This document shows, one piece after another, positions 6,258 through 51,534 of a stretch of 64,000 bases of DNA (position 1 is the first letter of the stretch; each line of letters opens with the position of its first letter). The stretch is from Candidatus Chlorohelix allophototropha (GTDB lineage Bacteria > Chloroflexota > Chloroflexia > Chloroheliales > Chloroheliaceae). The notes below the pieces were generated by a model, which had not been told where the DNA came from, did not search any database, and saw nothing but the letters and a program-made list of their open reading frames with translations. Both the position numbers and the translations under genes were made by a program. The stretch is taken from NCBI RefSeq assembly GCF_030389965.1, contig NZ_CP128400.1, positions 1,302,001 to 1,366,000 on the forward strand, written 5' to 3'.

Positions 6258-7571
6258 TTACGCTCCGCGCAACACTTCCACCAAACAATCAATTTCTTCT
6301 CTGGTGTTCATTTCGGTGCAGCAAAAGAGCAAGCAATCGGCAAATTGGGGGTACTCTTTGCCAAGAGCATAACCGCCGATTATTCCGGCTTCTTTACAAG
6401 CTGCTTGCACTATTTCTATATTTGGTACACGTACTAAGAACTCATTGAAGAAAGCGCCTTCTAGTAGCAAGCTGTAACCGGGAAGTTTGGCAATTTCGTC
6501 AGCGGCATAGTGGGCTTTGTGATAGCATTGTTCCGCTACTTCGTGCAAACCTTGTTTGCCCATTGCGCTCAGGTAAACGGTAACGACCAAAGCGATCAAG
6601 CCTTCGTTAGTGCATATATTGCTGGTGGCTTTTTCGCGTCGGATATGCTGTTCGCGAGTCTGGAGGGTTAGCACAAAAGCGCGTTTGCCCGTTTTATCGG
6701 TGGTCTGTCCCACTATGCGACCGGGCAAGTTGCGGATATATTCATTACGACAGGTGAAAATACCCACATAAGGTCCACCAAAGCTAGGGCGCATTCCGAG
6801 GCTTTGCCCTTCGCCTACCGCAATATCTGCGCCACACTCACCGGGCGGTTTGAGCAAGCCCAATGAGGTAGGATAGGCTGAAACTACAAACAACGCCCCT
6901 TTAGCGTGAGCCGCATCCGCGAGCTTTTTCAAATCTTGAATCTGCCCCAGAAAATCAGGCTGTTGAACCAACAGAGCGGCAGTTTGGTCATCAAGGGCGG
7001 CAACCGCTTCTTCCATGGTTTCATATTCGGCGATAACGATACCCTGCGGTTCGGTATAGGTGCGCGTTACGGCACGGGAGTCAGGGTGTACCGTTTTAGG
7101 GATTATCACTTTGTTTCTATTAGTGACGTTAACTGCCATAATGGCGGCTTCTGCCAGCGCGCTTGCCCCGTCATACATAGAAGCGTTTGAAACATCCATG
7201 TTGAAGAGTTCGCCCATCATGGTTTGATATTCGTAAATGGCTTGCAAAGTACCCTGACTTACTTCGGGCTGGTAAGGAGTATATGCGGTATAAAACTCAG
7301 AACGCCCCACCAAATGCCCAACTACACTGGGTACATAGTGGTTGTAACTTCCTGCTCCGAGGAAAGAGGCATGATCACGCAAATTCCAGTTGCGGGAAGC
7401 CAAACCGTTCATCAGGCGAGTTGTTTCTAGTTCAGAGAGGGCTTTGGGTAGGTCGAGTTTAGGGAAGCGCACCTGTTTGGGTACTACCTCGAAAAGCTCT
7501 TCAACCGAATCGACACCGATGCTTTTCAGCATTTCCTGAAGCTCAACATCGGAATTAGGAACATAATTCAT
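6258..7571 (-). CDS. gcvPA: Glycine dehydrogenase (decarboxylating) subunit 1
   Basis: A 437-residue N-terminal half of the split P-protein of the glycine cleavage system, which decarboxylates glycine and loads the aminomethyl group on the lipoyl arm of GcvH. Recognisable family segments are FLGAGSYNHYVPSVV, TAYTPYQPEVSQGTLQAIYEYQ, GEGQSLGMRPSFGGPYVGIF and EKATSNICTNEGL. In split enzymes the PLP-binding lysine is in the second subunit, GcvPB. No gcvPB lies next to it here: the following genes are two methyltransferases. The gene follows gcvH by about 100 bases containing a hairpin. Confidence 0.93.
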   Translation of the reverse strand: MNYVPNSDVELQEMLKSIGVDSVEELFEVVPKQVRFPKLDLPKALSELETTRLMNGLASRNWNLRDHASFLGAGSYNHYVPSVVGHLVGRSEFYTAYTPYQPEVSQGTLQAIYEYQTMMGELFNMDVSNASMYDGASALAEAAIMAVNVTNRNKVIIPKTVHPDSRAVTRTYTEPQGIVIAEYETMEEAVAALDDQTAALLVQQPDFLGQIQDLKKLADAAHAKGALFVVSAYPTSLGLLKPPGECGADIAVGEGQSLGMRPSFGGPYVGIFTCRNEYIRNLPGRIVGQTTDKTGKRAFVLTLQTREQHIRREKATSNICTNEGLIALVVTVYLSAMGKQGLHEVAEQCYHKAHYAADEIAKLPGYSLLLEGAFFNEFLVRVPNIEIVQAACKEAGIIGGYALGKEYPQFADCLLFCCTEMNTREEIDCLVEVLRGA

Positions 7572-33808: not shown

Positions 33809-34711
33809 ATGCAACTGGATTTACTACCTATTCTAAAGTGTTTGCACTGTGGTCACGATGGATTACAGCAACAAGAAAATTCCAGAATTGTAAACAAAGA
33901 AACCCTTCTTGACGGCGCGGGAGTTTGCCCGCGCTGCCACACTCGCTATCCTGTAAAAGACGGCATAATTAATTTCCTGTCTCGCCGCACTCCTAATATC
34001 ACTTTTGGACAATTACCCAATCAGTTTACCTTCACCGCTTGGGGTTATGAGCGTCTGTGGAGAAAGCGCGCTTTATCTCTACTGGGTGGTCGCGAATGGT
34101 TACCGGAAGAAGAACTGGCAACCCTAATTGAAATGCTCAATGCCGATGGTTTTAAGCGTGAAGGTTACGAGATTGCTACCCATAACGGGGTCGCTTTTAT
34201 TTTGGACGAGGGTTCTTCCACCGGATTCTATGCCAGAGCAGTTGCGTGTGCGATTCGAGATGGAAAACTAAATATGGGAGGCGCACCCCTACATGTGGTC
34301 GCTATCGACAATAGCTGGCAGATGTTACAAGAAGCGCGAAAATATATTGAACAAGAAGGACTTTCTGACGCTATCTCGCTTGTCAGGGCCGATGTCGAGG
34401 ATATGCCGTTTATAAATAAAGCATTTGCAGGGATTACCAACGGCGCTGCTTTAAACGAGTTCAAACATACTGAACCGGCTTTGAGTGAAACGCGCCGCAC
34501 TCTCGACAAGTTTGGCAACGCCGTTTTTATGGTGCAAATGAAAGCGCGTGGTAAAACCGGACGCTTGCTTGATACTCTGATAACCCTTACCAGCGGCATC
34601 AAATTTTTTGATTATGCGCAACTGGAACAACATTACGATAGGGCAGGTTTCCGCTGTTTAGAGCAAGTCTCTAGCGGATTAGTTACTATCAGTCGCCTAC
34701 GCAAAAGATAA
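33809..34711 (+). CDS. SAM methyltransferase with N-terminal zinc ribbon
   Basis: A 300-residue protein. Residues 11-50 hold two Cys pairs, CLHCGHDG and CPRCHTRYPVKDGIINFL. This is a Trm112/RlmA-like zinc ribbon that often precedes methyltransferase domains. The catalytic part has VAFILDEGSSTGFYARAVA as a degenerate motif I, HVVAIDNSWQMLQEA as motif II, RADVEDMPF, and ITNGAALNEFKHTEPALSET as motifs III-IV. The acceptor is not predictable. It follows lysS by 54 bases, in the same direction. Confidence 0.75.
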   Translation: MQLDLLPILKCLHCGHDGLQQQENSRIVNKETLLDGAGVCPRCHTRYPVKDGIINFLSRRTPNITFGQLPNQFTFTAWGYERLWRKRALSLLGGREWLPEEELATLIEMLNADGFKREGYEIATHNGVAFILDEGSSTGFYARAVACAIRDGKLNMGGAPLHVVAIDNSWQMLQEARKYIEQEGLSDAISLVRADVEDMPFINKAFAGITNGAALNEFKHTEPALSETRRTLDKFGNAVFMVQMKARGKTGRLLDTLITLTSGIKFFDYAQLEQHYDRAGFRCLEQVSSGLVTISRLRKR

Positions 34712-34736
34712 AAGGCGAAGGCTATACCCTCGCCTT
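34712..34736 (-). terminator. Hairpin between methyltransferase and vWA genes
   Basis: AAGGCGA / TCGCCTT arms with an 11-base loop. On the minus strand it is followed by TTTTATCTTTT, so it serves the vWA gene best. It lies between convergent genes. Confidence 0.6.
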
Positions 34737-34755: not shown

Positions 34756-35505
34756 TCAAATAAAGAAACGATTTGCCCCTATTGTGCTTTGGCTACGTAT
34801 AATCGAGGCGCTAACCTGATGGAAGATGCGGCGTATTTCGCTTGACGATGCTTGCACCGTAAGTACTGCCGGGAAGCCCACCTCGCGCGCGATTTGGTTT
34901 AAATCGTGGCTGCCAAACCCCACATACGCCAATGTATAAGACTCTTGTGCTACTAGCGCATTACTTACGGTACGTACTTGCTGATTATTAGCTTTCGAGG
35001 TGTTATCTTCTCCATCTGAAAAGACCACAATCACCCCACGGGTACGTACTCCATTATCCCGAAGCATTTGCCCATATGCCACCATTCCCGTCATAACGTG
35101 CAGTAGCGTATCATAAAGCGCCGTATTGCTATCGGGATTGAAATCCGCACCATTGATACCATTTAGCCCTGTAACGGGGGTATAGCTGAACAGCAACCTA
35201 GGTTTTGCGCTGAAAGCCCATGTGCTTAACAGGATTGATTCTGGCAGGCGCGATTCTCGCAACGCTTCTAGCATCTGGTTAAATCCTTCAATCACTGCTT
35301 GTCTGTAAGGACTCATCGAACCGCTTTCATCCAGCACTACCGCCACCAGCGTTACATCGTCGCTATCAATTTGGTCTAATCCCACCCCATTGCAACCCGC
35401 TAACGCTACCGCATCCAAATTTTCTACCAATACCAACGCTGCTTGTTGGTCAAGATCATTGTTTTGAACCGCGCTGCTAAAGAGGTCATTTATATTTCCG
35501 CTCAT
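34756..35505 (-). CDS. TerY/YegL-like von Willebrand factor A domain protein
   Basis: 249 residues from the ATG at 35505 (GGAAGGG just upstream). The vWA domain holds the metal-ion-dependent adhesion site: VVLDESGSMSPYRQAV (DxSxS), the Thr region near SNTALYDTLL, and VVFSDGEDNTSKANN (the distal Asp). It has no signal peptide, so it is a cytoplasmic vWA protein, as in TerY and YegL. These occur with a PP2C phosphatase and a kinase in predicted phosphorylation-dependent stress systems. Both partners are encoded just upstream on the same strand (36603-39184). A link to chaperone-like or metal-dependent signalling is known only as prediction for the family. Confidence 0.85.
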   Translation of the reverse strand: MSGNINDLFSSAVQNNDLDQQAALVLVENLDAVALAGCNGVGLDQIDSDDVTLVAVVLDESGSMSPYRQAVIEGFNQMLEALRESRLPESILLSTWAFSAKPRLLFSYTPVTGLNGINGADFNPDSNTALYDTLLHVMTGMVAYGQMLRDNGVRTRGVIVVFSDGEDNTSKANNQQVRTVSNALVAQESYTLAYVGFGSHDLNQIAREVGFPAVLTVQASSSEIRRIFHQVSASIIRSQSTIGANRFFI

Positions 35506-35625
35506 ATTTCCCTTCCTTTCGGACAAACCTTAAGTAAGCCCTACCTTTTACAAAGGTATAGTTGTAATTATTTGATTGCCCTGTCTCGCTTCTTTGAGTC
35601 AGACAGGGCTTATAACTTAGGAGAA

Positions 35626-36570
35626 TTAGTTAATTGGGTCTTTGGAAGTTACCAACCGCATCCCTTGTTTTGACATCGCCTGCAACTCGGCATTGGCAAT
35701 TGCATCAAAGTCAATGGCGGGGTGCTGAACCGAGGAAGTGCAATCCATCAGGAAGCGCAACTTGGCAATAACCTCCGGTTGGTTGCTAAAATACTGGATA
35801 ATCGAGCGCATCGTTGATAACACGCAATGGCTTTTTGCCTGACCCGCCACATACACCAAATCATACTTGCTCAACATATCGAGGAATGAAGTATTCAATC
35901 CACCTAACGGATGCGTGGGTACTTTCACCTCCGGTTCAAGGATGGAGTAGTTTTCGGTCTGCGGAATAGAGCCTTTAATCAGCCACATAGGTTGGGCGTG
36001 CCGTGCCGCCGAATGGTACATAATCGCTTCTGATAAGGCGGGTACAATAGATTGTCCCGGTGTTCCAATCATGGTGTGGTAGGGCCAAATCATCAGAATA
36101 TATTTGCCGCCCTTTTCCAATTCCTCAACATAGTGCAATGACCAAGTTGGATCAATAACCGGCTTCCAAGTGCCGTTGCGAATATCTTCACCCGAAATTG
36201 TGGTGAATGGCGCAGGATGTTCGCCCTTTTCGTTAATCCACCACGTAGGGTAGAAAATCTGGAAAGCGGTGTGACTATCCAATGAAGCGGCGATACTGGT
36301 AATTTCCCCGTTGTGCTGATAAATCCATTCTATAGTGCGGCGGGTATCTTCCACTGCGCCCGGCACACTCAAAGTTCCGGTCGGTAGAATAAAATCCACT
36401 TGCGGGTCAACCAGTAGCAACATAACCCGCTTTTTATCATGTGCGCTTGGGGCGCTTTGCGCTTTCAACCCGGCTTCGGCTGCTACCGCTATTTCAGATT
36501 GGTATAGCGTGCCGACTTTTGCCGGGTCGTAGTAAGCCGGGAAAGCTGCATTAGTTTGATTCGTTGCCAT
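35626..36570 (-). CDS. Isochorismatase-like cysteine hydrolase
   Basis: A 314-residue member of the nicotinamidase/isochorismatase-like family. LLLVDPQVDFILPTGTLSVP holds the catalytic Asp and SIAASLDSHTAFQIFYPTWW the substrate and metal face. VYVAGQAKSHCVLSTMRSII holds the nucleophilic Cys. The segment with the catalytic Lys is less sure (a candidate is near ELEKGGKYILMIWP). It is longer than simple nicotinamidases (about 200 residues), with extra residues at both ends. AGGA lies eight bases before the ATG. It stands 32 bases after the kinase and before the vWA gene, so it appears built into the signalling operon. Nicotinamide amidase activity is possible but not shown. Confidence 0.75.
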   Translation of the reverse strand: MATNQTNAAFPAYYDPAKVGTLYQSEIAVAAEAGLKAQSAPSAHDKKRVMLLLVDPQVDFILPTGTLSVPGAVEDTRRTIEWIYQHNGEITSIAASLDSHTAFQIFYPTWWINEKGEHPAPFTTISGEDIRNGTWKPVIDPTWSLHYVEELEKGGKYILMIWPYHTMIGTPGQSIVPALSEAIMYHSAARHAQPMWLIKGSIPQTENYSILEPEVKVPTHPLGGLNTSFLDMLSKYDLVYVAGQAKSHCVLSTMRSIIQYFSNQPEVIAKLRFLMDCTSSVQHPAIDFDAIANAELQAMSKQGMRLVTSKDPIN

Positions 36571-36602
36571 TTTAAATATCCTTTCATTCCATTGTTTGAA
36601 AC

Positions 36603-38477
36603 TTATTTTACCATTTTAAGAAAAGTAATCCTGTTATTACTGACTACCAGCAAGCCCCGCCCGTAAGGGATTAGCGCATCGCCTTCTCCCACGTAAGCGG
36701 CTGTAGCAGGTAATAGGCTATTCTGTCCGTTTGCCAAATCTACCCTGAGTATTCCGGCATTAGTCGGCAGTAACGCGGTGTTTTGAGAAAAAGCGATACC
36801 ACTAAGCTCATCTATACCGCCAAAATCGGCATTACTCCCTCTGCGGCTGTGCCGGATTTTACCGTCAGCGTCAACCACCTCGAATCGTATCCATGTAACT
36901 CCGTTATGGCGCGTTTTTCGTACCAGCAGTACCAATGCGCCTGAGAAAAAAGCTTGTGTTTCCAGCAAACTTTCTCCGGGTTGCAGCAGAGCCACTTCAA
37001 GGTTATGTCGTCCCTCGCGGTTCAACAGGAAAAACTCATAGCGGTTAAAAATACGGGTATAACCGATTAGCCTATCCTGATTTGGCAGTGGGTTGGGTGC
37101 AGCCACAAACCACGTTTGGTTCTCCAATATGCTGGTGACAGGACGTTCCAGCAATTGTCCCCAGCGCACCTCCCCTTTTAGCAACATTCCTCCTGCAACT
37201 CGGTAAAGTAGCCCGTTAGCACAGGCAAAAATCGCCGTATTACTACCATATAAATCGGTAGTTAGTCGTGCAATTCCGGTTGCATGGTCTCCGTTCAGGT
37301 CAATTACCAACAGGCTATTGTCACCGATTGCGGGACTGACCGCTAGAAAATTTCCGGCAAACTCAAACCGCGCCCCCGGTAGTTCGTGGAATAACACTTG
37401 TCGCTTGATTGGTGTTCCCGCCGCTTTCGTATAGAGTACGGTATTGCCTTCCTCGTTCGCCAAACAATATAGAATATCGCCCAACAACTGCCAGAAAATC
37501 AGCTTGCCATTTACCTTCAAAAATTCTTCACAGCGTAGCCCGTTTACCTCTATCACCTCCGGCATAACAAACGCCAATGTAGCGGCGCAGACCGGGCAAT
37601 GCAGGCGAGCATTCGGATACCAATGTCCGCAACTATGGCATTCTTGCAACGACTCCTGGTAAAGCTGCAATAGTTCAACCGGAATTGCCCCACGCCATCC
37701 TTTTGCAAAAATACTATGGAAAAGCTGCAATAACTCATCCGTCAGTAATTTTGGACTTAAAGCCGTTTTAGGATATTTCACGCTCCGGTCAAACACTGTA
37801 ACCCCAATTTGCGCTCGCGCTTCAAGCTGTTTCAGAGTCGGGTGAGTGCCTCCGTAGGGATGCGTCAGCAACAACGCCCTGAATACCATCACTGCAAAGC
37901 TGTACCAATCATTGGCAGGGCTGAAAAGCGTATTAGCGCTCAAGTCCCGGTTGTAAAGTTGCGGGTCGAGGTAATCACGGGTTGCTACCGGGCAGGGATA
38001 TTGCCCGAACTGGTAACTATCCACATCTATGAACTGGACTTTATCGTTGTAAAAAAGCTCGTTATTATCATTAAAGTCTCCCACAACTAGCCCGGCAGCG
38101 TGAATTGCCAGCAAGGTAAGTTGCATTTCCAGAAACACGCCCGTTATATCGCGTTCGTTCAAATGGGTAGAGTCGCGATAGGCGCGTTGGAAAAGGCGTG
38201 AAACCGGCATATACCCGTTTGGCAGACTGCGCATTGCAAATCCAACCGGAGCTTTGCCGCGCTCATCCCATACCAGTTCTTCTGGTAAAATTACGTTGGA
38301 TGGCAATCTTGGCGCAAACTCGATTAACTCTCTGACTTTATTTAGTCGAGTTGGGTTAGGGCAGTGGTACAGTTTGAGAGCGCGGTTGTTATAGCGCAAA
38401 ACTGTAGCCTCACCCCCTGCCCCTAGCACATCTTTCTCCTGTACTGTAACCCGCTTGTTGCCCACTACTAATTTCAT
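36603..38477 (-). CDS. YegI-like protein kinase with zinc ribbon and C-terminal beta domain
   Basis: 624 residues from the ATG at 38477, two bases after the phosphatase stop. Kinase landmarks are the glycine loop LGAGGEATVLRY (about 15-26), the Lys in RALKLYHCP, the catalytic loop VVGDFNDNNELFYND and the metal loop FIDVDSYQFGQYPCP. This DFNxxN ... DVDS pattern is that of the YegI/TerY-associated kinase group rather than of classical Ser/Thr kinases (HRD...DFG). Near residue 310 a zinc ribbon is visible, CHSCGHWYPNARLHCPVCAA. The remaining 280 residues are strand-rich with repeated short segments and might be a beta-propeller-like sensor. No membrane helix is seen. Confidence 0.82.
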   Translation of the reverse strand: MKLVVGNKRVTVQEKDVLGAGGEATVLRYNNRALKLYHCPNPTRLNKVRELIEFAPRLPSNVILPEELVWDERGKAPVGFAMRSLPNGYMPVSRLFQRAYRDSTHLNERDITGVFLEMQLTLLAIHAAGLVVGDFNDNNELFYNDKVQFIDVDSYQFGQYPCPVATRDYLDPQLYNRDLSANTLFSPANDWYSFAVMVFRALLLTHPYGGTHPTLKQLEARAQIGVTVFDRSVKYPKTALSPKLLTDELLQLFHSIFAKGWRGAIPVELLQLYQESLQECHSCGHWYPNARLHCPVCAATLAFVMPEVIEVNGLRCEEFLKVNGKLIFWQLLGDILYCLANEEGNTVLYTKAAGTPIKRQVLFHELPGARFEFAGNFLAVSPAIGDNSLLVIDLNGDHATGIARLTTDLYGSNTAIFACANGLLYRVAGGMLLKGEVRWGQLLERPVTSILENQTWFVAAPNPLPNQDRLIGYTRIFNRYEFFLLNREGRHNLEVALLQPGESLLETQAFFSGALVLLVRKTRHNGVTWIRFEVVDADGKIRHSRRGSNADFGGIDELSGIAFSQNTALLPTNAGILRVDLANGQNSLLPATAAYVGEGDALIPYGRGLLVVSNNRITFLKMVK

Positions 38478-38479
38478 GG

Positions 38480-39184
38480 CTATGCCACTCTTTCTACCAC
38501 AATCCCGGTGGTGTCGTCTTCTAGGCGCCCCTTGCGGGAATGTACATTTAGTTGGCGTTGCAAGCCGCGTGGGTGGCTGTGTCCCCAAGTAGAGGGTAAT
38601 AGTTGCGGGTCAAGCCCGTCCGTCCAGATTGCCAAACGCTCCAATTGCTTTACCGAAAATTCGCGCACCTCGAACGAAGAGGGGACATTGTTCAGCAAAT
38701 CATATGCCAGATAATGCGGAGTATTATTTTGATCAATCGAACTGATATTTTTATTCAAAACGCACAAGCCATCACCTGCGCTGAAAATAATGCCTTTTTC
38801 GCTATCCATCACAAAACCTAGCACCGTAGTCAACAAATATTCGGCAATGACCTCATGGTTTTGTGCCGGATTGAGCGCACGCAAGCCCTGTAAAACGCGC
38901 CGCATATAGCGCAAGGCTGCCCGATAGAGCATGTCTGGTAGCCATTCGATTGGCACGCCTTTGGAAAGTTGTCGCGCTGCTTCTTGGCAAAGAAAACGAG
39001 CCATCAAACCTGCGCCCACTTCAGAATTGCTCCCGCTTCCGCATCCGTCACAGACTACTCCAATCAGGTAGCTTTCACCGTTTACCTGAATTTCCGTAAT
39101 ATTGTATTTGTCTTGGCAGTTGGTCTGGAGTAGCGTATGATTTTTTCCAATGGTTGAACCGGCACTAACTTTGAAGCGGCGCAT
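38480..39184 (-). CDS. PP2C-type Ser/Thr phosphatase (YegK/TerY-P type)
   Basis: A 234-residue small PP2C phosphatase. The metal-binding motifs are IGVVCDGCGSGSNSEVGAG (about 42-60), IFSAGDGLCVLN, RLAIWTDGLD and the C-terminal LEDDTTGIVVERVA (Asp pair). N-terminal NHTLLQTNCQDKYN matches the family start (Q/N-D). It is the first gene of the minus-strand operon, with the kinase starting two bases after its stop. The pair would reversibly phosphorylate a target, possibly the vWA protein. The upstream 378-base gap carries repeated ACACTAACTA-like motifs. Confidence 0.85.
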   Translation of the reverse strand: MRRFKVSAGSTIGKNHTLLQTNCQDKYNITEIQVNGESYLIGVVCDGCGSGSNSEVGAGLMARFLCQEAARQLSKGVPIEWLPDMLYRAALRYMRRVLQGLRALNPAQNHEVIAEYLLTTVLGFVMDSEKGIIFSAGDGLCVLNKNISSIDQNNTPHYLAYDLLNNVPSSFEVREFSVKQLERLAIWTDGLDPQLLPSTWGHSHPRGLQRQLNVHSRKGRLEDDTTGIVVERVA

Positions 39185-39562
39185 ATTCTTGAACCTTTCT
39201 TATGGTTAATGTATTATTAACACTAACTAAACCCGCAATTATGCCCTTCCTAATTAAAAAAGCAAAATGTAGTTATACCATAGAACCGGGATTGAGAAGG
39301 GCTAAAAATGATTTTCTAAATCTGTATGTGTAATTTACACACTAACTATATCATGGGATTGAATCGCTGTCAATAGTTTCTTAGTGTTATTTATCACACT
39401 TACTAATTTTGATATTTTTAACTTTCTGAGCAATTATTCAGGTCAGGCTATGGTAAGTTAGAGTATAATTTGATAAGGGGATTGTTCTGGGCGATAACAT
39501 GACAACAGCCCAAATCATGGGTAAAATATAGTTGTAATCTCGAAAGGTATTTTGGTTAATTT
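39185..39562. promoter_or_regulatory. 378-base divergent gap with repeated motif
   Basis: No gene seen. ACACTAACTA occurs at 39220-39229 and 39339-39348, and a related ACACTTACTAA at 39396-39406 faces TTAGTGT at 39381-39387 as an inverted pair. A palindrome, TGTGTAA-T-TTACACA, lies at 39327-39341 next to the second copy. This spacing looks like a cluster of operator sites between the phosphatase and protease genes. Confidence 0.5.
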
Positions 39563-40723
39563 ATGTTCGGAAACTCTTTCAAACTATTTACTTGGCGCGG
39601 CGTGGAAATCTTTATGGATCTTACCGCGCTCTTTATCATAGTTTTTTATGTTGCTACACTTGGCGGGGTAAGCCGTAATGACGGTCTGCTGATTGGCGTA
39701 GCGGTTGGCGTGCTGATTATAGCCTCAATTCTAATACATGAACTGGCGCATGCGGCGGTTGGGATGCTGTTAGGCGCTAAAGTCGATAAAATCATGCTTT
39801 CCGTCATCGGTGGGGTGTGTGTCTTTGGCTCAAAGCGTACCAGCAACTGGCGCGACCTATTGATTTCATTAGCGGGACCTGCTTCTAACTTTGCGCTCTG
39901 GTTTATCTTTAACCTTTCTTTTGAGCAAACTCGCAACCAAAGTTTGCAAACTACTGCTTGGATATATATTTGCTACTATGTGTCGCAAGCTAATCTGCTA
40001 CTGGCAATTTTTAACCTCTTGCCCGGTTTCCCGCTGGACGGTGGGCAAGCCTTACGCGCACTGGTGTTGCTGGTAACTCGCCGTGAGTTATGGGCTGCTT
40101 GGGCGGTTGCACTCGGTGGTCTGGGGGTAGGTGGGTTCTTTGCTTTTATAGTTATCAACGATTTGCAGAGTGGGCAGCCCTCTGTTCTAAATGTCATTTT
40201 GTTGGGCATGCTGGGCTACTGGATTGTCAGTGCTTCGTTAGGGCAATTGCAAAGCACTAAACAATTTACCGGGCAAGCTATGCGATTCAAGCGCGCTCCC
40301 GCTGCCCCTGTAGCTACCTCTCAAAAGCAAGAAAGCATCTCAGAAGGAATTCCTGCGGGAGCTTTGGCAAATCGCGGATTTGATTCTACTTTTGACCCGC
40401 GAACCACTATAATTGAGTTTCTAGCGCGAACATCGACTATATCGGATGGGGTAATGATCCCGGTATTGCGTGACGGTTTTTTTGCCGGAATGCTAACCCG
40501 TTCTATCGCTCGCAAGGTTTCGCGCGACCAACAGCAATATACTTATCTTGAGAAAATTATGATGCCTCGCCGTGATTTTCAGGCGGTTTATGAGGATGAC
40601 GACCTGTCTATGGCACGCCTTTTGTTACGTGCCGGACGAGGTAAGCCGGTGCTGGTTCTCGATCGGGGCGGTGTATTTATTGGTTCTATTTCTGCGGCAG
40701 AATTGGAAAAAGTTCGCCGATAA
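39563..40723 (+). CDS. M50 (site-2) membrane metalloprotease with CBS-like C terminus
   Basis: A 386-residue intramembrane zinc protease. Several membrane helices surround ILIHELAHAAVGMLLGAKVD (the HExxH zinc site, about residue 65) and NLLPGFPLDGGQALRAL (the distal zinc Asp, about 155). SLAGPASNFALWFIF is a further family block. Residues about 270-386 have CBS-type strands and helices (TSTISDGVMIPVLRDGFFAG, then PVLVLDRGGVFIGSISAAEL). This makes it a member of the M50 subgroup with a cytoplasmic CBS module. Such proteases can release anti-sigma or membrane-bound factors. It is the first plus-strand gene after the TerY-P-like locus. Confidence 0.9.
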   Translation: MFGNSFKLFTWRGVEIFMDLTALFIIVFYVATLGGVSRNDGLLIGVAVGVLIIASILIHELAHAAVGMLLGAKVDKIMLSVIGGVCVFGSKRTSNWRDLLISLAGPASNFALWFIFNLSFEQTRNQSLQTTAWIYICYYVSQANLLLAIFNLLPGFPLDGGQALRALVLLVTRRELWAAWAVALGGLGVGGFFAFIVINDLQSGQPSVLNVILLGMLGYWIVSASLGQLQSTKQFTGQAMRFKRAPAAPVATSQKQESISEGIPAGALANRGFDSTFDPRTTIIEFLARTSTISDGVMIPVLRDGFFAGMLTRSIARKVSRDQQQYTYLEKIMMPRRDFQAVYEDDDLSMARLLLRAGRGKPVLVLDRGGVFIGSISAAELEKVRR

Positions 40724-48018: not shown

Positions 48019-51000
48019 TCAAGCTAAGGGAATACTAAATGAGAAAGTGCTGCCTTTACCCTGAATGCTTTCTACCCAGATACGACCACCATGTCGTTCC
48101 ACAATTTCCTTACAAATACTTAAACCCAACCCGCTGCCAAGTTGACTTCCCCGTATTCTTCGCGCTTCTTCGTCCTGTACTTGATAGAAACGTTCAAATA
48201 TACGGCTGAGATGCTCAGGCGATATACCTATCCCACTATCGGCAATGCTAATAACTGAAAAATCATTCTCTAATTTTAATTCTACCATTATTCTACCGCC
48301 TTGCGGTGTAAACTTAATTGCGTTTTCAAACAAATTACCGATTAGTTGAGTAAGTCGCATTTCATCCGCATGTACAACACAGGTTTCTTCAGGTAATTGA
48401 GCGGTTATTAACCGAATATTCTTAGCGTAAATCATCGGTTTTATGTTATTCACAGCCTTAAGCATAATATCGGTGAGTGAGATAGGCACCAAATTCACAC
48501 TAAAACGCCCGGCATCAGACCTAGATAAGTCAAGTATATCCTCAGCCAATTTCTTTAATTGATTTACGCTTACTAAGATGCTACTGATAAACTCTTGCTG
48601 AAGCTGGTTTAATTCACCTGCTTTGCCTTCCGCCAGCATTTTTGTAAAGCCGTTTATGACATTAATTGGATTACGCAATTCGTGCGAAACCATAGAAACG
48701 AAGTTGGTTTTCAACTGTTCCACTTCGCGAAGAGCAGTTACATCTCGCATGGTAGCGACTATATTAGTGGTTCCTTCTGCACTCAGCACCGCGCTCCAGT
48801 TAGCGGAAACTGTACGTCGCAAGCCTTTCCGGTTATCAAGGCGAATTTCGTGGTGTAACAATGGCTCTTTAATTACCAGCGCTTTGGTTAAGGGGCAAGC
48901 AATCTCGCAGAGTAAATTGCCCTCTTTGTCCTGACAACGCAATACTTCTTGGCATTTTTTGCCGGGTTCTTCTGATTCTGCCCCAATGAAAGAACCAATT
49001 GCCGAGTTTAACCGCAACACATTAAATTTATCGTCAATTAGTATAATTCCATCGCTGCTATTACCAAAAATTGCTTCAAGGCGTTCTCGCTCTTGCGCGG
49101 TTTGTCTGAGTAATTTACGCTCTCGGGCTGCCTGAAGCTCTAACTGCTCTACTTGAGTAATGACCAATTCATGTAGCAGGGCGTTTTCGATTGGACCAAC
49201 GGCTTGGTTGATAATATCGGTTATAAGAATCAGGTCATCTTCGGTGTAAAGATAATCCTGTGAAGCGCCGATTTGAAGCAAGCCGGTACAACGTTCGCCA
49301 TACCAAAGTGGCATTAGTACACCGGAGAGCAATTGGCGAGAATTATAGCTCTCAAGAATACGGCGGAATCGCGGAACTTTGTAATCTAGCTCGGTGATAG
49401 GCACTGCATTTCGCAGTGAGATTGCAACTTCGTTATGACTTAAACCTATCGAACCAAATTTTAACTCAGGCAGTTCGTTGCCCGACATAAAATCATGTTC
49501 TAGCTGACGATATAGTCCATCAGGCCCGAATACTTGGATATTTGCCCAGTTAAAATCTATATGACGATGCAATTCAATGAAAGTGTTGCGTAATACCTCG
49601 GTTAATTCGAGACTGCTGCTGGTTACTTTCGCAACTTGTCGTAGAATAGTTAGATGTTCGGCTTTGCGCTGGCTTCGTCTTAAGATACGCGCTTTTTCTA
49701 AGGCAATTGCCGCTTGACTCGCCACGATGACCATTAGCTGTTTATGGTACTGCTTAAAGGGCGCATTCTGGTAATTGGCAATAGCAATAAAACCGCTAAC
49801 CTGCTCGTCTAGTTTTGTAGGTGTAACCAACAGCGCGTTTGGTAAATGCCCTTCGAGGCTTCGAAACCGTTTGAGCGGGAAGTCATTATCACTGGCATCT
49901 ATCACCAATTGCCGTCCATGCTGGAGAAGCCAATTCAAAATAGGTTCGGTGGAATTCCAGCTTTCTGGGGCATAATAAACGCCATGCTCTACGTGCAGTT
50001 GGATTTCAAAGATACTGCGGGTTTCATCGAAGGTGGCTACATACAAAGCATCATAATCAATCAGCTTGCCGAGATAGTCTTTTATTATAAAGAGAAGATT
50101 ACTTGTATCCAAAGTGCTGGCGAGCCGTAATGCGATTTCGCTCAGGTTGGTCATTTCCTGATTACGCCGCGCGGCTTCCTGTTTCAAACGGGTATTTTCA
50201 GTAATATCACGTACCAACAAAGAAATGCCCCTGATACTTTCATTTACGTCCCGTATAGGAGCAAGTGTTACTGAAAGAGAAAGAATTGAGCCATCTTTAT
50301 GTCGTTTCTCCATAACAACATTAGCCAAAGTGACTCCCTGTTTTACATGTTCGAAAAACGCTTTTTCTTTGGCGATATCTCCTGAACTGGGTATAAACTG
50401 CCCAGTAATTTCCTGCGCACTAAAGCCAAATAAAGCTTCTGCGGCATCATTCCATTCTTGTACTCGACCTTCAAGGTCTAATTCAACTAACGGATCACTG
50501 AGGCTTGTTGTTAAAAGGTTTAAATACGAGCGCATTTCTTGGGATTGCTGGTGTCTTTCAGCCAATTCCAACCCATCGCTTAATTTCTCTCCAAGTTCTT
50601 CGAGCAATTCAAGCTCGGATGCTGCAATTTTATTTTCGTGGTTTTTGCTAAATACAGCCAGAATACCCCAATTGTGGTCTTTATCTTCTTGCCCAACAGG
50701 GATAAGAATAATCGAGCTAAAGCTTTGCGATTTTACAAAGTTACGATACTCTTCGGGTAGAAACTGGCAATTTTCGGTCAACCAACATTGTATCTTGTTG
50801 ATATTAGCTGCCAGAATACTCCGGTGTAAAATTAAAGGAGCAGCCAATGCTGACCCGTAAAAGGAATTATCCTTGGCACGCTTACCAAAAAGAAGGAAGG
50901 CGCTTTCGCTTTGCTTAAAGTTTGTTTCCAACCATTCCAGAACCCGTGTTATCAGGTTTTCACGGTTTGTAACATTAGCCGTTATCTGATTTAGCTGTAA

Positions 51001-51534
51001 TTGGCTGGCTAGTCTACTGGATTGGCGTAAACTGGCATCGGAGTGAATGAGCTTGGCGATACCAACCGCTTCTTGGTCAGCCATCTCATCAAGTAGTTGT
51101 AGATGTTCGCTGGTAAAGGCATCAAATCGAGGGCTGGTAACAGTAATAGTGCCAAGCACCTGTTTTTTATGCAGAAGCGGCACACACATTAGCGAGGCTA
51201 TTTGATCATTTCCAATCCGAATATATTCCCCTGCCCGGTTTACATCGCCACACAGAAAAGATTGTTTGGTGGCAGCTACATGACCCGCGATACCAACACG
51301 CAACTTAAATCTGCTCTGCCTCAATTTACCCGGAGCAGTTACACGTGAAGAAGCACGAGTGACCAGTTCACCAGATTTCTTGTCTATAAGCGCTATAGAA
51401 CAGTGTTCCGCATCTAGTAAATTGAGAATACGGTTGACTATACTACGTAAAACAATTTCATATCGCGCCGGGTTGACCAGAGATTCTTCCTCTTTCCCGG
51501 CTGAAACGATTGTTTGTGACTCAATATCCTGCAT
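48019..51534 (-). CDS. Large sensor histidine kinase with four GAF and two PAS domains
   Basis: A 1171-residue soluble kinase with no membrane segment. Rough order: GAF 1 (about 25-165, IVNRILNLLDAEHCSIALID), GAF 2 (about 195-330), PAS 1 (about 345-455, EWNDAAEALFGFSAQEITG), GAF 3 (about 465-620), GAF 4 (about 635-790) and PAS 2 (about 815-930, with CQEVLRCQDKEGNLLCEIAC). HisKA follows with VSMVSHELRNPINVINGF (His about 942), then HATPase with NLFENAIKFTPQGG, SIADSGIGISPEHL and GSGLGLSICKEIVERHGG. It may sense small ligands, redox or light through its GAF/PAS set, but no bilin-binding Cys motif is plain. The operon order is OmpR-type regulator, this kinase, REC protein. Confidence 0.92.
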   Translation of the reverse strand: MQDIESQTIVSAGKEEESLVNPARYEIVLRSIVNRILNLLDAEHCSIALIDKKSGELVTRASSRVTAPGKLRQSRFKLRVGIAGHVAATKQSFLCGDVNRAGEYIRIGNDQIASLMCVPLLHKKQVLGTITVTSPRFDAFTSEHLQLLDEMADQEAVGIAKLIHSDASLRQSSRLASQLQLNQITANVTNRENLITRVLEWLETNFKQSESAFLLFGKRAKDNSFYGSALAAPLILHRSILAANINKIQCWLTENCQFLPEEYRNFVKSQSFSSIILIPVGQEDKDHNWGILAVFSKNHENKIAASELELLEELGEKLSDGLELAERHQQSQEMRSYLNLLTTSLSDPLVELDLEGRVQEWNDAAEALFGFSAQEITGQFIPSSGDIAKEKAFFEHVKQGVTLANVVMEKRHKDGSILSLSVTLAPIRDVNESIRGISLLVRDITENTRLKQEAARRNQEMTNLSEIALRLASTLDTSNLLFIIKDYLGKLIDYDALYVATFDETRSIFEIQLHVEHGVYYAPESWNSTEPILNWLLQHGRQLVIDASDNDFPLKRFRSLEGHLPNALLVTPTKLDEQVSGFIAIANYQNAPFKQYHKQLMVIVASQAAIALEKARILRRSQRKAEHLTILRQVAKVTSSSLELTEVLRNTFIELHRHIDFNWANIQVFGPDGLYRQLEHDFMSGNELPELKFGSIGLSHNEVAISLRNAVPITELDYKVPRFRRILESYNSRQLLSGVLMPLWYGERCTGLLQIGASQDYLYTEDDLILITDIINQAVGPIENALLHELVITQVEQLELQAARERKLLRQTAQERERLEAIFGNSSDGIILIDDKFNVLRLNSAIGSFIGAESEEPGKKCQEVLRCQDKEGNLLCEIACPLTKALVIKEPLLHHEIRLDNRKGLRRTVSANWSAVLSAEGTTNIVATMRDVTALREVEQLKTNFVSMVSHELRNPINVINGFTKMLAEGKAGELNQLQQEFISSILVSVNQLKKLAEDILDLSRSDAGRFSVNLVPISLTDIMLKAVNNIKPMIYAKNIRLITAQLPEETCVVHADEMRLTQLIGNLFENAIKFTPQGGRIMVELKLENDFSVISIADSGIGISPEHLSRIFERFYQVQDEEARRIRGSQLGSGLGLSICKEIVERHGGRIWVESIQGKGSTFSFSIPLA

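Follow-up and report, generated by a model that had tools for sequence, protein, structure and literature searches.

A recurring TerY-P-type operon of Chloroflexota that carries a divergent, predicted nicotinamidase

TerY-P triads are widespread, but to our knowledge few of their substrates and outputs have been described. In the window, i.e., the whole stretch of 64,000 nucleotides analysed here from the genome of Candidatus Chlorohelix allophototropha (6,086,194 bases in 5 contigs), a phosphatase, a kinase, and a vWA protein resembling such a triad share an operon with a fourth gene that codes for a cysteine hydrolase. This raises the question of what the hydrolase is and how it relates to the other three. 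The evidence supports a TerY-P subtype that recurs across genomes and includes a divergent nicotinamidase. The features of the locus, all on the minus strand, are as follows.

39345..39373 (-), probable operon promoter, TTGACA-17-TATAGT with extended -10 TG (11/12 matches in the scan)
38480..39184 (-), PP2C Ser/Thr phosphatase, homologue of PphC/YegK (PF13672, E 3e-19)
36603..38477 (-), YegI-type Ser/Thr kinase with an ATG start (PF00069, E 2e-5, below the Pfam cut-off)
35626..36570 (-), nicotinamidase-like cysteine hydrolase (conserved residues, fold, neighbours coding for nicotinate phosphoribosyltransferase [NAPRT], exclusion with PncA)
35578..35609 (-), hairpin GCCCTGTCT...AGACAGGGC, GC-rich and lacking a T tract, between hydrolase and vWA (folding z-score -2.8)
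34756..35505 (-), cytoplasmic TerY/YegL-like vWA protein with an intact MIDAS (PF00092, E 1e-8)
34712..34736 (-), intrinsic-terminator-like hairpin with a T-rich tail, directly 3' of the vWA gene (terminator scan)

According to the open reading frames of the window, positions 34756-39184 hold four minus-strand genes in the order PP2C, kinase, hydrolase, and vWA, flanked by two plus-strand genes, for a methyltransferase (33809-34711) and an M50 protease (39563-40723). All four genes of the preliminary description are present, and its spacings of 2 bases (PP2C/kinase) and 32 bases (kinase/hydrolase) were borne out. The third spacing had to be revised from ca. 97 to about 120 bases, since the ATG at 35505, preceded by a clear ribosome-binding site (AAGGAAGGG), is a likelier vWA start than the alternative TTG at 35526. 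The promoter site, which is the top scorer of the region and lies ca. 160 bases 5' of the PP2C ATG, and the terminator-like hairpin come from scans that yield about equal numbers of sites in shuffled sequence. On the same strand, neither type of site was matched in the gaps between the four genes, so that nothing detected by the scan sets the hydrolase apart as a separate transcript. Judging from this layout, the four genes are one real operon, with a putative promoter at its 5' end and a putative terminator at its 3' end.

The hairpin between hydrolase and vWA was discarded as a terminator because it has no T tract and was not called by the terminator scan. It may act in attenuation or RNA processing and, being strong, could uncouple expression of the hydrolase from that of the vWA protein. 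Hairpins of unrelated sequence are found in the same gap of several operons with this gene order: the window (35578-35609), L006 (6988-7022), L043 of MAG 54-19 (6982-7006, z -5.4), and L042 of Ktedonospora (about 6927-7051, a near-perfect inverted repeat of about 28 bp, z -6.3). The gap of L007 had no folding excess. Repeat elements, or RNA-processing signals, that tune vWA expression are possible explanations for these hairpins. In genome G118, a long near-perfect inverted repeat (GGAGTCCCGGCTTCAGCCGG...), similar to a repetitive element, lies between hydrolase and vWA (L087, about 1558-1647). Elsewhere in the window, positions 48019-51534 (minus strand) encode a large sensor histidine kinase of 1171 aa with GAF and PAS domains.

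TerY-P systems have been defined by a TerY-like vWA protein, a PP2C, and a kinase with a C-terminal zinc ribbon (PMC11090510). The same set is found here in one operon, with a linkage that is kept across genomes. The phosphatase matched E. coli PphC/YegK (E 7e-7; hhalign E 2e-9), and its metal-ligand Asp residues are kept across homologues. The kinase has the Gly loop GxGGE, K35, D134, N139, and D151, together with the DFNDNN and DVDS loops and the zinc ribbon (C280-C283-C294-C297) read earlier from the sequence; D134, N139, D151, and the four Cys are invariant in six kinase homologues. Over kinase domain and zinc ribbon it is 25% identical to E. coli YegI (E 2e-17; hhalign E 3e-18), in an alignment that takes in the CPxC part of the ribbon. 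The vWA protein keeps its MIDAS residues (D60xSxS, T129, and D165) across homologues and matched YegL at the profile level (hhalign E 4e-6). Because the three proteins are homologous to PphC/YegK, to YegI over the zinc ribbon as well, and to YegL, we assign them by sequence as a TerY-P triad, in agreement with the preliminary description. The lack of a TerD-type gene, noted before for the window, extends to the whole host genome (no PF02342 match at E ≤ 1e-3). TerD was likewise absent from the five other operon-bearing genomes searched, the association of TerY-P with TerD/Ter being frequent and not strictly defining.

Beyond the zinc ribbon, the kinase continues for about 300 aa in a beta-rich, propeller-like part. 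The AF2 model, built from six sequences, is of low confidence (pLDDT 67), and with it Foldseek retrieved kinases, LRRK2 (kinase plus WD40), and propeller peptidases, which gives a hint of a possible C-terminal beta-propeller. In Ktedonospora formicarum, the kinase gene (L042 5465 / G447:C3:732767) is interrupted by a frame change around residue 460, so that most of the propeller-like tail falls outside the first frame; either an error in the sequencing or a genuine two-gene form could account for this.

The hydrolase is barely recognised by family libraries. Pfam gave a borderline isochorismatase match (E 0.019), and the curated PncA model of NCBIfam (NF008623) was failed by a wide distance (E 0.048, 13.5 bits versus a cut-off of 174), which places the protein in a divergent branch outside that family model. 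Its fold is clearly isochorismatase-like, as had been proposed from the sequence. A profile search of the PDB ranked yeast Pnc1 (1e-9), Mycobacterium tuberculosis PncA (4e-8), and Pyrococcus horikoshii PncA (1e-5) at the top, and with an AF2 model of pLDDT 95, Foldseek ranks 1 to 15 were all nicotinamidases (TM to target, 0.51 to 0.80). Across 46 homologues, the invariant residues include D55, K199, and C249, which correspond to the established catalytic residues of PncA/Pnc1, and D98, H100, and H165, which correspond to the metal ligands. The latter sit in DSH...WPYH, with H165 within WPxH, and the Asp-Lys-Cys triad aligns with that of Pnc1. With 314 aa, including an N-terminal extension, the protein is about 100 aa longer than a typical PncA and about 20% identical to Pnc1.

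Genomic context points the same way. NAPRT is the next pathway enzyme after nicotinamidase, and hydrolase relatives outside the operon adjoin an NAPRT gene on the same strand, at 6 to 95 bases, in 14 loci (L061, L062, and L064-L075). A canonical NAPRT adjoins a relative in L015, L033, and L036, and convergent NAPRT neighbours lie 27 to 30 bases away in L026 and L031. Among 400 Chloroflexota genomes, canonical PncA (called at E ≤ 1e-20) was present in 0/35 genomes with the hydrolase versus 143/365 of the others (Fisher p 1e-7, uncorrected for kinship and phylogenetically non-independent, with 29 of the 35 coming from two families). In family f49 both enzymes occur, never within one genome. The host has one NAPRT gene and four other isochorismatase-type proteins, which match biuret-hydrolase/RutB-like models and all lack the nicotinamidase metal motif, leaving the hydrolase as the only nicotinamidase candidate found in this genome. 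Given the active site, the fold, the NAPRT context, and the phyletic exclusion with PncA, we infer with good support that the hydrolase is a divergent nicotinamidase, with a predicted activity that would feed NAPRT. The suggestion of a role in nicotinamide turnover, made in the preliminary description, has thereby become the best-supported reading of this enzyme.

As a separate observation, L061, L062, L064-L075, and others have divergent nicotinamidases in tight operons with an unusual NAPRT of about 450 aa (PF02749 N domain). Such nicotinamidase-NAPRT operons occur in other Chloroflexota families, in genomes without canonical PncA, and the curated PncA model misses their nicotinamidases.

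The next point is whether hydrolase and triad belong together. All six genomes with the kinase subfamily (G000, G001, G003, G004, G361, and G447) have the hydrolase in the operon: 3/3 of those passing E ≤ 1e-100 in the 400-genome sample and 3/3 further genomes of the host's own family. The proposed check of recurrence elsewhere was thus positive at every locus where the kinase subfamily was found. A seventh locus, L008, reads HYD-vWA-PP2C as far as the contig end, and MAG 54-19 carries a close relative of the operon (L043). The six genomes represent three lineages and two gene orders, PP2C-KIN-HYD-vWA in the host's own family and Ktedonospora, and HYD-vWA-PP2C-KIN in G361, whose vWA-PP2C-KIN order equals E. 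coli yegL-pphC-yegI. Since these orders swap between the host family and Ktedonospora on one side and G361 and L008 on the other, [HYD-vWA] and [PP2C-KIN] move as blocks, the hydrolase always being directly before vWA. Close vWA relatives (E ≤ 1e-15, 400-genome sample) adjoin the hydrolase in G000, G361, and G447. Two draft genomes have less of the operon: a distant HYD-vWA pair without a related kinase was found in G118, and G365 (1760 contigs) has the vWA gene, with no hydrolase or kinase found.

Conventional vWA-PP2C-kinase triads with no hydrolase in the stretch examined are found in G043 and in G002, a member of the host's own family that also has six TerD genes. This bears out the view that the hydrolase is outside the core trio; it is not a general TerY-P component and marks a separate subtype, and the two subtypes coexist in one family. 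The triad and the TerD genes of G002, a genome without the hydrolase, belong to L124 (G002:C178) and G002:C498. In a tree of 63 hydrolase sequences, the operonic copies were clustered (3 changes versus a shuffled mean of 7.7), and the Ktedonospora hydrolase grouped with stand-alone Ktedonobacteria copies. A single operonic clade was rejected, as the tree needs those 3 changes, so the association may have been gained repeatedly or be an old link followed by losses; both are possible from the tree.

What could a phosphorylation switch do with such an enzyme? We propose that a TerY-P-type Ser/Thr switch acquired a dedicated nicotinamidase. The hydrolase would convert nicotinamide released by NAD cleavage to nicotinate, which the chromosomal NAPRT would return to NAD. 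Kinase and PP2C would act in opposition, with the vWA protein and/or the hydrolase as the most likely targets of phosphorylation, in response to signals that might be read by the zinc ribbon and the beta-rich C-terminal region of the kinase. Antagonism of the two enzymes is supported by E. coli, where YegI autophosphorylates and PphC dephosphorylates it (PMC13232886); no expression condition has been defined for yegI/pphC (PMC13232886). The MIDAS-bearing vWA protein might be an adaptor, as HYD-vWA is the most stable gene pair; it would bind the hydrolase and turn its activity up or down, or control how much of it reaches a partner. The net result would be NAD salvage and nicotinamide clearance controllable by phosphorylation in stress. 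This reading as a whole, phospho-controlled NAD salvage with the vWA protein as adaptor, is the one that we lean towards as probably right. That switch and nicotinamidase share an operon that is kept in distant relatives suggests control of NAD recycling by the switch; the stricter claim, that the switch directly controls the nicotinamidase and that NAD salvage is phospho-regulated, we hold tentatively, at a little under an even chance. We read nicotinamide deamidation in NAD salvage as the likely metabolic output, or input, of this TerY-P variant, and the hydrolase could act either as output (NAD salvage and nicotinamide removal) or as a signal source through the nicotinate level.

A plainer explanation is that the hydrolase could be a housekeeping enzyme, an ordinary nicotinamidase merely sharing a promoter with an unrelated TerY-P switch, since no other candidate for this activity was found in the genome and its relatives elsewhere are stand-alone or NAPRT-linked. 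However, the link to the triad holds in Chloroheliales and a Ktedonobacterium as well as in G361 and L008, two further Chloroflexota genomes, survives the block swap with the hydrolase still directly before vWA, and leaves a hydrolase-vWA pair without a kinase in G118, so that we regard mere promoter sharing as rather unlikely. Still less probable is that the switch reads some other small-molecule signal, which the enzyme, as a nicotinamidase-like amidase, would produce or break down. The enzyme superfamily is substrate-diverse, and the extra length and low identity to Pnc1 would suit such a role, but the homologues all keep the metal site typical of nicotinamidases, NAPRT adjoins many of the relatives, and the hydrolase and canonical PncA are mutually exclusive.

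A role in defence also has to be considered, as stand-alone TerY-P-like modules with antiphage activity have been reported, and TerY-P triads are found alongside restriction systems (PMC11090510). The operon would then be an anti-phage or DNA-processing system, in which nicotinamide clearance aids the rebuilding of NAD after NAD-consuming immunity. Against this, PADLOC returned for the four proteins (E ≤ 0.1) nothing except a weak match of the kinase to PD-T4-6 (E 0.024), the flanking genes code for a methyltransferase and an M50 protease, and none of the genes next to the operon was recognised as a nuclease or restriction gene; we therefore consider a defence role improbable. A literature search of limited coverage gave no report combining TerY with isochorismatase or nicotinamidase with defence.

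If phospho-controlled NAD salvage is correct, the hydrolase would be the first concrete metabolic effector or input for TerY-P systems. An operon-encoded enzyme with a predictable and easily assayed activity makes the output of a TerY-P switch directly testable. The hydrolase also belongs to a divergent Chloroflexota nicotinamidase family that escapes standard profiles, and the genomes that carry it would otherwise be taken to lack PncA.

Compared with E. coli yegL-pphC-yegI and TerY-P triads generally, the operon has the same three homologous proteins together, while the fourth conserved gene, for the predicted nicotinamidase, and the beta-rich, propeller-like kinase tail are its own; it also differs in the absence of TerD from the six operon genomes searched and, in the window, in the swapped order of the blocks. 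The Chloroflexota triads of G002 and G043 resemble it in their clustered vWA, PP2C, and YegI-like kinase genes and differ in having no hydrolase in the stretch examined and, for G002, in the six TerD genes. As for the hydrolase, its 314 aa with an N-terminal extension, its failure to reach the cut-offs of Pfam and of the NCBIfam model for PncA, and its linkage to a phospho-switch set it apart from PncA and Pnc1, with which it shares the catalytic D-K-C, the metal D-H-H, the best profile and fold matches, and the NAPRT neighbours.
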